Assembly (NCBI GenBank): GCA_019044685.2
Contig: JAGTXX020000012.1
Coordinates: 248,001-312,000 of the forward strand
Reading direction: 5' to 3'
Length of the DNA stretch: 64,000 bases
Source of the DNA: Nannochloris sp. 'desiccata'
Lineage: Eukaryota > Chlorophyta > Trebouxiophyceae > Chlorellales > Chlorellaceae
The notes under the pieces were generated by a model. It did not search any database. It was not told the DNA's origin and saw only the letters and a program-made list of their open reading frames with translations. The position numbers and the translations under genes are program-made. The stretch's first letter is position 1. Every line of letters begins with the position of its first letter. Positions 49,026 through 53,394 of the stretch are shown here, piece by piece.

Positions 49026-50540
49026 ATGCATTTGGGTGCCTCAAAGTCCCTCTTTGGGACTCATATCTCCCAGATCAAGGCAGCACCCAAGCGAAAGGTG
49101 CGCAAACAGTCTTCTCTGTGTTTAGGAAAAAAATCCAATTACCCTAGTAGAGACAACAAGCAAACCCTCTTGTTTTCACACTTCTCCTGATCTCACCACA
49201 CTAACCCAACATCACCAACCAAACCTTTATCTCTGCAGAATGTATCCTCCTCTCGTCGCGTTTTGGCAGTCCAAACCCCCGATCGCTTAGCGGCATCGAC
49301 AGATGACGCTCTCGCCCAGCAGGTTATTGCCGATGAAAAACGTTACATCCTGCAAACATACGGCCGTCCAGACGTCGTTTTTGTCCGTGGAGAAGGCACC
49401 AAAATGTACGATACTCACGGCAAGATGTATCTCGACTTTGCTGCAGGCATCGCTGTGAATGCTCTAGGTCATGGAGATCCCCGCTGGGTTGCTGCTGTTA
49501 CTGAACAAGCTGCACTCTTAACCCATACATCTAACCTATTCCACACTGCTCCTCAAGCTGCGTTAGCTCGTCGTTTATGCGAATCTTCCTTTGCTGATCG
49601 TGTCTTTTATGCAAATACTGGTACTGAAGCTAATGAGGCGGCAATCAAATTTGCCAGGAAATATGGCAAAGTAACTGCTGGCTTAGACCCCTATAACGCA
49701 GAGACTGCTGGCGACGCTGCATATGAAATCGTTTCATTTACAAATTCTTTCCATGGACGTACCATGGGAGCCTTGGCTTTAACTTATAAGGAGCAATATA
49801 AGACGCCTTTCCAACCTGTGATGCCAGGAGCGGTGATGCTTCCATATAGAGATTTAGAGGCCGCTGCTGCGAATATTAAAAAGGGACGTACTGCAGCTGT
49901 ATTTGTAGAGCCTGTACAAGGTGAAGGTGGTATTCATCCTGCAGGAGCAGAATTTTTAGCAGGGTTGAGGAAATTGTGTGATGATGCCGGAGCATTGCTT
50001 GTCTTTGATGAAGTACAAGTGGGATTAGGCCGTACTGGCAAGCTGTGGGCGTATGAAAACTATGGGGTTGAACCTGATATGATGAGTTTAGCAAAACCGT
50101 TGGCCGGTGGGCTGCCTATTGGAGCTGTCTTGATGAAACAAAAAGTTGCCGATGTGATGCTTCCCGGGGACCACGGGTCTACTTTTGCTGGAAATCCTCT
50201 TGTATGCCATGCTGCATGCACTGTATTTGATATTATTGCAGATCCTGCGTTTTTGGCAGATGTTGAGCGGAAAGGGAAAGCTCTCCGAGAGGGGTTGACG
50301 AAAGCGCTGGCAGGTAATTCTCATGTTAAAGAAGTCCGTGGTTCTGGGTTAATTTGTGGTATTCAGCTCGACCAGATGGGTTCTAAAGTTGTGGAATGTG
50401 CTCGTGATGAAGGCTTGATTGTTATCACTGCTGGGAAGGGTGATATTTTGCGGTTGGTGCCCCCATTGACGGTAACTGATGACGAGATTAAGAAATGTTG
50501 TGAAATTATGGGTGAAGTGGCAGGAAAGGTACTGGTTTAG
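49026..50540 (+). CDS. ARGD: Acetylornithine aminotransferase, organelle-targeted
   Basis: Exon 1 (49026-49097) and exon 2 (49239-50540) join in phase 0 to 457 aa. The first 40 residues are basic and Ser-rich (GASKSLFGTHISQIK), a likely plastid or mitochondrial leader. The class-III PLP aminotransferase core has MYLDFAAGIAVNALGHGDP, NTGTEANEAAIKFARK, FHGRTMGALALT, VFDEVQVGLGRTG and the Schiff-base lysine in SLAKPLAGGLPIGAV (near residue 309). It transfers the amino group to N-acetylglutamate semialdehyde in arginine synthesis. The GHGDPRW and TSNLFHTAPQ motifs favour acetylornithine over ornithine aminotransferase. Confidence 0.93.
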
Positions 50541-51010
50541 AAAATTAGTCTTTTTATGTATAATCGATGCTGTTGGTAGAGTATAAGTCTTGTAAAAATG
50601 AATTGCCAGAAAAAATGAACTACTTGAGGAAAGGTGTAGCACATGGCATGAGTTGAACTAAAACTAGCATACTGCTGTTGACCTGGTTTCGTTAAAAGTT
50701 GACGACAGTCATTAGTATGTATGATATGGATATGTAAAGCTAGTATCCGCCAATTTTGGTGGGGAGAACTTTGATTGCATGATCACATGTTACTCTCTTG
50801 CAAGTGATTAAGCACGATGCGGCCTTCTAAAACCTGCAGTTGAATCTATGGAGTAGATTCAGTGTTCCAGAAATTGACAAACCGGTGAGAAATGGAAGAA
50901 ATTTGGATTTTAACAGAATTTTCAAAAATATGATACAGGTCCATTCGATATTGAGCTTCAGTCCGATTTGATTCCCTATCATAGGAATACCCTATCATAT
51001 ATTTGGGTCG
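50541..51010. other. Intergenic region upstream of the first permuted tRNA
   Basis: No gene was recognised. A duplicated ccctatcata word (50974-50999) and a TATA-like catatattt just before 51005 lie directly ahead of the permuted tRNA. The second permuted tRNA also has catatattt upstream (52802-52810). Confidence 0.45.
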
Positions 51011-51113
51011 CGACAGAAGTCCCCAGTTCGAGCCTGGGTATCCGTACAGTCGTACCGTAGAATTCAGTACGACACGCGGATATAACTCAGCTGGTTAGAG
51101 TGCTGTCCCCACA
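51011..51113 (+). tRNA. Circularly permuted tRNA gene, predicted tRNA-Val (CAC), atypical C33
   Basis: The 3' half comes first. C38 is at 51011, the anticodon-stem 3' strand GACAG at 51012-51016, variable loop AAGTC, T arm CCCAG-TTCGAGC-CTGGG (51022-51038), acceptor strand TATCCGT (51039-51045) and discriminator A at 51046. A 29-nt linker follows, then the 5' half: GCGGATA (51076-51082), D arm ACTC-AGCTGGTTA-GAGT (51085-51101), G26 and CTGTC (51103-51107). GCGGATA pairs fully with TATCCGT (one G-U at 1:72), and CTGTC pairs fully with GACAG. The loop reads CCCACA plus C, giving anticodon CAC (51110-51112). Position 33 is C, not U, which is abnormal. A leader TGGG (51004-51007) can pair with loop CCCA as in a bulge-helix-bulge, but the leader-side bulge is 4 nt rather than 3. 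Confidence 0.8.
51047..51075 (+). other. 29-nt linker of permuted tRNA, perfect hairpin
   Basis: This linker joins the 3' end to the 5' end of the tRNA in the precursor. GTCGTAC and GTACGAC form a 7-bp perfect stem around an 11-nt loop, stacked next to the acceptor stem. It would be removed by RNase Z-type cleavage after A73 and RNase P cleavage before G1. Confidence 0.75.
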
Positions 51114-51118
51114 AAATC

Positions 51119-51122
51119 TTTT
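51119..51122 (+). terminator. Pol III T4 terminator after permuted tRNA 1
   Basis: A TTTT run follows the predicted 5'-half end by five bases, as expected for RNA polymerase III termination. B-box-like sequence (gttcgagcc) lies in the 3' half upstream and A-box-like sequence (ataactcagctgg) in the 5' half downstream, so the promoter order is reversed. Confidence 0.65.
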
Positions 51123-51768
51123 AGCCCTTTGGCCACCATCACCAGCATGGGCTCCGCCAAAACTCGGTTCTCACAGCATAATACCCTCTTTCCGTCGCAC
51201 CCTGTCCTGTCGACGCAAACAACCGTCAATTACTTCATTACTGACTTAGAGGTGGGTGTTCGATGCCAACAATAAGGTCCAGGAAGGCGCACGGCTAGAA
51301 CTTTAGGCTGTGCACAACCCGCCGCCGTTACTGTCGCCCCTTATTTTGCATCATGATTTCTTGGAAGGCTAGGAAGGATACGACAGGTTCTAAAACATCT
51401 ACAGATGCTACTGCTACAGTTTCTCTGAGAGGTCGACTTTACCTGCTCTCAACTACAGGCAGCACTGGGCGACTGCTCGTAAAGACGCTCCTTGCGTTAG
51501 TAATAACGAAGCGAGAGTATGCGGCGAGGGTAGATTGATTGTAGATCTGATGTAGCTGATTCTGTGCACACTCAGCATCACGCAGTGTTGCATTTTACTG
51601 CTGGGGTCGTGTCAAAGCTTACCGCTTATGAAGAACTGAAAATTACCGCTGATGTCGAAGGAATTGCCCTGCCCCATGACGGCGCCTTACTGGGCTGACA
51701 AACTTAAATTTTGATACCGATGGGCAAGAATTTAATTCATATCCAGACTTACTTGAAGTTCCACTTTA

Positions 51769-52165: not shown

Positions 52166-52849
52166 TGAGTGCACTGATGCCACCCTTATCTAAACCATAT
52201 AAAAAGAGCTAAAATTAAAAAAAAATGATTAAAGCCCGTCTCTTCTAGCAAGGATGCCATCTATGAGGTATGTTACCAACTCACCCAGTTTTTAAGGTAG
52301 AACAAAGTGGGTCGGAACATGACATGTGATCAATGCCACCACAAGTGATTATTCAAGCAATTTATCTGAAAGCCAACAAAAATCAATCAAACCTTCGCTG
52401 ATAGAGTTTTTAAAATAGTTTCTGCTGCCGCATAAGAAGAATTGGGTGGATGAATTATTACAACCAGTTTGGCCCCAAGTTGGAAGGTTTCGATGAAAGT
52501 TAAAGTAAATGAGGGCATTTAGACGCAATGACAATACTACTTCCTCCCATCAAATTTAAACGATTGATTTCACCCCATTGAGCTTTGCAGCAAGCTCTTA
52601 AACGTCTCAATTCGCCTAGAAACAATATTTTTGCCAAATTTGGTCCCAAGTTGATTTTTAGCAATTTTGCCCAAAACAGGGTCGGATCTCCCAACATACG
52701 CCTTGGGACTGTTGTGAACGATGCAGTTAGCCTTGCGAAAGCTGCCTTATCTTACGGAATCGCCCAAAATTTTGAAAAAACTGAAAAAAGCCTAAGTTGA
52801 CCATATATTTTTCTCTGAATTGTCCTCATCAAGCAAAATTTCCTTAATA

Positions 52850-52952
52850 CGCTTGAAGCCCCCAGTTCAAGTCTGGGTAGGTGTACGAAACCTCGGTTCC
52901 ATAACGGCCGTGCTGCACCTATAACTCAGTTGGTTAGAGTGCAAGCTTAACA
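52850..52952 (+). tRNA. Circularly permuted tRNA gene, predicted tRNA-Val (AAC)
   Basis: The 3' half comes first: C38 at 52850, GCTTG (52851-52855), variable loop AAGCC, T arm CCCAG-TTCAAGT-CTGGG (52861-52877), TAGGTGT (52878-52884) and A73 at 52885. After a 29-nt linker comes the 5' half: GCACCTA (52915-52921), D arm ACTC-AGTTGGTTA-GAGT, G26, CAAGC (52942-52946) and loop TTAACA to 52952. Both the acceptor pair (GCACCTA/TAGGTGT) and the anticodon stem (CAAGC/GCTTG) are perfectly complementary. The rejoined loop TTAACAC has U33, anticodon AAC (52949-52951) and A37. The leader has TTAA plus a 3-nt TAC bulge (52844-52850) facing loop TTAA, a bulge-helix-bulge-like site. Cloverleaf positions are canonical. 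Confidence 0.88.
52886..52914 (+). other. 29-nt linker of permuted tRNA 2
   Basis: The linker has the same length as that in permuted tRNA 1 but unrelated sequence and only a weak hairpin (GGTTCCATAACG). Equal length with different sequence suggests a constrained spacing for precursor folding. Confidence 0.7.
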
Positions 52953-52956
52953 TTTT
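52953..52956 (+). terminator. Pol III T4 terminator after permuted tRNA 2
   Basis: A TTTT run begins immediately after predicted A37, giving a very short trailer. In addition, ATTTTGC here can pair with GCAAAAT at 52833-52839 in the leader, closing the two ends of the precursor. Confidence 0.6.
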
Positions 52957-53394
52957 GCCCTCTACTTTTCACAAATGTATTCATTACTGCCCGTCGATTG
53001 GCGTTGTCAAAAGTCAATTCCGATACCATTTTGACCATGTTTAAGGCCACATGAAGTCTGCCGCCATTACTGCAGTTCGGATGTAGTTTTAACTCTGCTT
53101 TGGCTCTATTTTACAACCCCTCGCATCAAATCTAGTTGATTGGCGTTGACTCTACTCCATTCCGACCCCCAATTTCGTCCCTTTTTCCGACAAAACTCCA
53201 CGGTGACAGCGGAGGCATATACTACTCGCTCTAAGTATTATATCTAATAAACTCTATGCTATCTGCTCTATGTTTTACACGCTTCTAATCATTCAAACAA
53301 ATTTTGAGGGAAGCAAATGCATTTGATTTACCCTTGGCACCAACTAAACATACCGCCAGCTACTCTTCAAACTACTCCTCTCGGAAAAACGTAT
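52957..53394. other. Intergenic region after permuted tRNA 2
   Basis: No supported gene was seen. The region is moderately pyrimidine-rich and ends at the MYND gene stop codon. Confidence 0.45.

Follow-up and report, generated by a model that had tools for sequence, protein, structure and literature searches.

Circularly permuted tRNA genes, in which the 3' half of the tRNA is encoded upstream of the 5' half, were reportedly described in Cyanidioschyzon merolae by Soma in 2007. By 2014, 34 such genes were listed from six algal species and one archaeon, with no more than 11 in any genome and spacers of 1 to 74 nt, and the review that gives these figures also describes a circular intermediate (PMC3978253). 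In C. merolae, 11 of 43 tRNA genes are permuted, with junctions at positions 20/21, 37/38, 50/51, and 59/60 (PMC3978253). Ostreococcus, Micromonas, and the Bigelowiella nucleomorph, which belong to the green lineage, have relaxed hBH motifs and a 37/38 junction in nearly all of their permuted genes, with three to six genes per nuclear genome in prasinophytes and two in the Bigelowiella nucleomorph; these genes often specify Ser, Cys, Leu, or initiator Met, and Table 1 of the review has no Val (PMC3978253). Two further permuted genes come from the Amorphochlora nucleomorph (PMC4494063), and permuted tRNA genes of Auxenochlorella were reported in 2025 (PMC12633428; PMC12636532). The sequence-only reading of the DNA described here had given the distribution as Cyanidioschyzon, some prasinophytes, and a nucleomorph; all of these are known, but the list is too narrow, since permuted genes are also present in Auxenochlorella (PMC12636532; PMC12633428) and in the archaeon Thermofilum (PMC3978253).

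The gene under study lies in a 64,000-nucleotide stretch that was analysed as a whole and is called the window (contig C12, 248001 to 312000), from the 21.55-Mb, 18-contig genome of Nannochloris sp. 'desiccata'. The host genome is that of a trebouxiophyte green alga, and an acetylornithine aminotransferase gene in the window (49263-50540) has its best named matches in green algae (Chlorella variabilis, 75%), with the nearest proteins at 95%. The locus is a circularly permuted tRNA-Val(AAC) gene of type II with its junction at 37/38 (Table 1), and the order given by the sequence-only reading, with the 3' half upstream of the 5' half on the same strand, is borne out both by the sequence and by a permuted-tRNA finder. 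As in C. merolae, the 3' half comes first, a spacer joins the acceptor ends, the junction has a splicing-endonuclease motif, a T stretch lies downstream, and CCA is not encoded; these shared features are known from C. merolae (PMC3978253), from which the present genome differs in that permuted genes make up 22 of the 30 nuclear tRNA genes found and that all are modelled at 37/38, the one junction tested. The relaxed hBH and the 37/38 junction are shared with Ostreococcus, Micromonas, and the Bigelowiella nucleomorph, whereas the count of 22 exceeds those of the prasinophytes and the nucleomorph, and Val is permuted while initiator Met is ordinary (locus L003) (PMC3978253). Auxenochlorella UTEX 250-A is likewise a member of the Trebouxiophyceae with a streamlined genome of about 22 Mb and an incomplete tRNAscan-SE set (PMC12636532; PMC12633428); with a GC content of 63.9%, against 44.6% in the sequence examined here, it is a different organism. 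Thermofilum pendens also combines circular permutation with a splicing-endonuclease motif but differs in being archaeal, in its 59/60 junction, and in encoding CCA (PMC3978253).

Table 1. Permuted Val genes of the window (all on the + strand) and tRNA genes found genome-wide
Feature	Position	Strand	Evidence or remarks
tRNA-Val(AAC) gene, permuted	52850..52952	+	sequence and permuted-tRNA finder
Val(AAC) 3' half	52850..52885	+	position 38, anticodon 3' strand 39-43, variable region, T arm, acceptor 3' strand, A73; order C38, GCTTG, AAGCC, CCCAG-TTCAAGT-CTGGG, TAGGTGT, A73
Val(AAC) intervening sequence between acceptor ends, 29 nt	52886..52914	+	finder; T4 absent inside
Val(AAC) 5' half	52915..52952	+	acceptor 5' strand, D arm, anticodon 5' strand, U33, AAC, A37; order GCACCTA, T8, ACTC/GAGT D stem, CAAGC, TTAACA
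Val(AAC) anticodon AAC	52949-52951	+	
T4 stretch, Pol III-type terminator	52953..52956	+	right after position 37, within TTTTGC; T4 scan downstream of genes
hBH leader strand TTAA	52844..52847	+	pairs with positions 32-35 (52947-52950)
3-nt bulge across cut before position 38	52848-52850	+	register test
Possible outer helix, leader GCAAAA	52833..52838	+	with trailer TTTTGC 52953-52958; offset by larger internal loop
Val(CAC) permuted gene	51011..51113	+	1.8 kb upstream of Val(AAC); exposed by weak RF02553 match
Val(CAC) 3' half	51011..51046	+	RF02553 match, E 0.037; permuted-tRNA finder
Val(CAC) intervening sequence, 29 nt	51047..51075	+	permuted-tRNA finder
Val(CAC) 5' half	51076..51113	+	loop CCCACA; permuted-tRNA finder
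T4 stretch after Val(CAC) 5' half	51119..51122	+	T4 scan
Permuted Ala AGC/CGC/TGC, Arg ACG/TCG/TCT, Asn GTT, Cys GCA			8 of 22 genes
Permuted Ile AAT/TAT, Leu AAG/CAA/TAA, Lys CTT, Met CAT, Phe GAA			8 of 22 genes
Permuted Ser GCT, Thr AGT/TGT, Tyr GTA, Val AAC/CAC			6 of 22 genes
Ordinary Val TAC, Gln CTG, iMet (L003)			intronless
Ordinary His GTG, Pro TGG, Ser TGA, Asp GTC, Ser CGA			intron at 37/38

Once rejoined, the halves of the Val(AAC) gene form a cloverleaf whose four stems, described as perfect in the sequence-only reading, are fully paired (acceptor, 7/7, with G-U at 1:72; D, 4/4; anticodon, 5/5; T, 5/5). The conserved U8, A14, G18G19, TTCAA, and A73 are present, as are the U33, AAC anticodon, and A37 that had been noted in the rejoined loop; CGA, not CCA, stands directly after A73. 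The spacer falls within the published range, and those of the 22 permuted genes span 5 to 55 nt. ARAGORN finds no tRNA in the window in genomic order, and RF00005 has no match there at E values up to 10, so that the gene does not qualify as an ordinary tRNA gene; the permuted-aware search proposed earlier gives the gene a score of 28, the maximum of the finder, and ARAGORN calls the rejoined sequence a tRNA-Val(AAC). GTT and GTC make up 50 of the 102 Val codons in three window genes, and tRNA-Val(AAC) is therefore needed.

The sequence-only reading called the finding of one such gene here rare, but within this genome the gene is no rare singleton: a second permuted gene, for Val(CAC), lies in the same window, and the genome total is at least 22 permuted genes against eight ordinary nuclear tRNA genes found. 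The spacers of the two Val genes are equal in length and match at 9/29 positions, with 27/36 and 28/38 identities in the halves, and their acceptor and anticodon stems differ by paired changes; the comparison suggests that an already permuted gene was copied. U33 is near-universal in tRNAs and is present in 21 of the 22 permuted genes, the sole exception being Val(CAC), where C33 replaces it. Val(CAC) may represent a variant or a copy that is failing, and not every permuted gene need therefore be functional.

The finder scores stems and conserved bases and models the 37/38 junction only, so permutations at other positions would be missed. Read in genomic order, none of the 22 permuted loci is called by ARAGORN; once rejoined, all 22 are, each with the expected anticodon. 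A genome search with RF00005 gives 16 places at E values up to 10 (63 of 825 candidates scored), of which the 10 over the cut-off are the eight ordinary nuclear tRNAs and an identical, organelle-looking pair, and the other six are parts of permuted genes. Seven ungapped D-arm patterns, which are independent of gene order and allow three mismatches, match 44 places: 18 distinct permuted genes, four ordinary nuclear genes (counted once each), the pair of organellar appearance, and 20 places that neither finder accepts as a tRNA. By themselves these patterns are weak proof because reversed patterns match too (0, 8, 3, 1, 7, 6, and 1 places), and the cloverleaf check decides; the 18:4 ratio may also lean to permuted genes because some patterns were picked after permuted D arms were known. 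The census is incomplete, with Gly, Glu, and Trp genes, among others, not turning up in the RF00005, YrlA, and D-arm searches. The permuted Met(CAT) gene is taken as elongator, since L003 is of the initiator type. For Leu(CAA), a variable region of 11 nt instead of 4 nt completes the anticodon stem; the covariation, identity, shuffle, and leader-trailer energy tests used the 4-nt reading.

Several other features of the genome are of note. The organelle-looking pair is a tRNA-Ser(GCT) with the same near flanks in both copies (L004 1501-1586 and L005 1501-1586, on contigs C6 and C13), with a T4 inside and no T4 terminator within 40 nt; it has the look of organellar DNA residing in the nucleus, or of one piece of assembly shared by the two contigs, and a separate permuted Ser(GCT) gene is present at L045. 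The 31-nt intron of the ordinary tRNA-Asp(GTC) gene (L028 1501-1603) holds a T-arm-like AAGTTCGAGTCCT, which may be a B box or a relic of a 3' half. Irregular TTTAGGG/TTAGGG-like repeats at the end of contig C10 (L049) are probably telomeric.

The junction was examined by sliding the leader along the anticodon loop in 84 registers for the 22 permuted genes. The best register has a 3-nt bulge, made of two leader bases and position 38, with a helix starting from position 32; its mean of 3.09 of 5 pairs compares with 2.21 for mismatched genes, and none of 5,000 permutations reached it family-wise. The effect is moderate, with four or five pairs in seven of the 22 genes (Val(AAC) has 4/5) and only one or two in four of them; five ordinary introns have 4, 4, 3, 2, and 1 pairs in the same register. 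The sequence-only reading had proposed a bulge-helix-bulge (BHB)-like site with a 3-nt bulge exactly at 37/38: the bulge and a motif of the splicing-endonuclease type hold, whereas a strict BHB does not, and the site is a relaxed hBH. A strict BHB is unsupported at the permuted junctions, where leader-trailer duplex energy is no better than that of mismatched pairs (P 0.27) and leader-trailer pairing shows no general excess, both over 21 genes; the fixed hBH register alone is supported. Genes for a Sen2-like endonuclease (E 5.3e-35 to 8iss_B) and a Sen34-like endonuclease (E 1.5e-10 to 6z9u_A) are encoded in the genome.

A permuted order could also be the non-functional remains of a tandem tRNA array: two ordinary genes in a row, of which the first has kept its 3' part and the second its 5' part, while the outer halves have gone. 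One route to permuted genes described in the literature is the loss of the outer segments of a tandem repeat (PMC3978253), and an additional, degenerate T-arm-like stretch that immediately precedes the permuted Thr(TGT) gene (L066, about 1366-1400) is possibly a relic of the tandem duplication that gave rise to it. Decay, however, would not preserve paired stems across the halves amid the covariation that is seen: in 16 of the 22 genes, which were aligned, 97.3% of cells pair, with 122 two-sided changes against 36.7 in shuffles, and all seven acceptor pairs and all five anticodon-stem pairs, which bridge both halves, show two-sided changes. The acceptor stem is 7/7 in 21 of the 22 genes and the anticodon stem 5/5 in 19, whereas mixed stems from different genes (21 genes) pair on average at 3.7/7 and 2.3/5. 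The anticodon, carried by the 5' half, and the discriminator, carried by the 3' half, also agree in the cases checked, with G3:U70 in all three Ala genes, C1:G72 in Tyr, U73 in Cys, and G73 in Asn, Ser, and Lys, as general tRNA identity rules would have it. A T4 follows the 5' half within 25 nt in all 22 genes (control, 15%) and lies within the gene body in none (control, 48% per 100 nt), and the hBH register is present at the cut. Nor does an ordinary Val(AAC) gene seem to serve instead: the conventional copy that the sequence-only reading had named among the signs that would speak against a permuted gene was looked for by sequence and is absent both from the RF00005 genome matches (63 of 825 candidates scored) and from a genome-wide search with the rejoined sequence, which matches its own two halves only. 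A tandem remnant is thus very improbable as an account of the present state of the locus, and the idea fits a possible origin better.

Upstream of the permuted genes, no clear motif emerged from a motif search; AT content is about 0.64 at -80 to -40, against 0.55. C. merolae has upstream TATA-like boxes (PMC3978253), whereas TATAW is not clearly enriched here, being found in 4 of 22 genes against 11% in the control. A terminator of the TTTTGC type is common to both kinds of gene: it follows within 40 nt in 12 of the 22 permuted genes and in 6 of the 8 ordinary ones, where the control gives 2.9%.

More improbable still is mimicry of a permuted tRNA by a non-coding RNA, whether YrlA-like (Y RNA) or another. 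YrlA is described from bacteria and is not known to have an anticodon arm or tRNA function, and its family (RF02553) shares the order of T arm, acceptor, and D arm found here. It is the only Rfam family that matches Val(AAC) at E values up to 10 (52853-52944; E 4.9, 21.7 bits); it also matches at Val(CAC) (50992-51127; E 0.037, 29 bits) and, with 46 of 427 candidates scored, at 12 places in the genome at E values up to 10. Those 12 places are all permuted tRNAs, Val(AAC) itself not being among them, and the best score in the genome, 29.1 bits, is far below the cut-off of 69, so membership is rejected on score. The loci moreover carry an anticodon stem and proper anticodons, and the rejoined sequences are tRNAs to ARAGORN in all 22 cases.

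A chance cloverleaf in non-coding DNA has a negligible probability: shuffled sequence does reach finder scores of 24 to 26, but the window and the loci, dinucleotide-shuffled in 1,115 rounds to a total of 308 Mb, gave no match at 27 or above, two at 26, and five at 25, whereas the 294,740 bases of real sequence (overlapping loci counted) gave 22 distinct matches at 25 to 28, all of them the permuted genes with their differing anticodons, common layout, and terminators, and a remaining six at 20 to 22 (best, 22), and the idea is already refuted statistically.

The directly observed gene order, cloverleaf, cross-half covariation, terminator placement, hBH register, and endonuclease genes point to a nuclear tRNA-Val(AAC) gene of type II that is functional and circularly permuted with a 37/38 junction, in a trebouxiophyte most of whose tRNA genes found are permuted, a reading to which we give a probability of about 0.92. 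Observations that count against it are the upstream regions with neither clear TATA enrichment nor a clear motif, the leader-trailer energies, the weak hBH register in four genes, the C33 of Val(CAC), a very short trailer, the T4 adjoining position 37, and a whole-precursor fold that is unremarkable relative to shuffles (z -1.49). If transcription, circle formation, ligation, end trimming, and decoding follow the published pathway and what is usual for tRNAs, Pol III would transcribe leader, 3' half, spacer, 5' half, and trailer, ending at the T stretch, and the precursor RNA would fold such that the anticodon stem closes and the hBH forms at 37/38. A Sen2/Sen34 endonuclease would then cut off the leader and trailer, tRNA ligase would link position 37 to 38 to give an RNA circle, and RNase P and tRNase Z would excise the 29-nt spacer, with CCA addition and conversion of A34 to inosine yielding a tRNA predicted to decode GUU and GUC.

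Val(AAC), Ala, Ile, Phe, Tyr, Asn, Cys, and Lys(CTT) are permuted with no ordinary gene found here. It is likely that permuted order is the default for nuclear tRNA genes in this alga, with most isoacceptors permuted, that translation as a whole therefore runs through circular precursors, and that Pol III has to cope with genes whose B box precedes the A box. If true, we know of no tRNA gene set that is more heavily permuted. The kind of gene is known already; the number and share here are new to us, the highest printed count for one genome known to us, apart from that for Auxenochlorella, being 11 (PMC3978253). Among the matches listed for the open-licence literature (titles, term counts, and abstract starts), no paper names permuted tRNAs in Nannochloris or Picochlorum, and the word 'permuted' is absent from the Picochlorum genome paper PMC11092101.

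Permuted tRNA genes have so far passed for a rare curiosity, and here they outnumber the ordinary ones among those found. In algae of this kind, most tRNA genes may escape standard annotation: ARAGORN, in genomic order, calls none of the 22 permuted ones. With at least 20 further tRNA genes encoded back to front, protein synthesis in this alga probably relies on tRNAs that start out as RNA circles, and a single organism makes testable how Pol III recognizes inverted A and B boxes, whether most tRNAs can be made via circles, and how permutation spreads.
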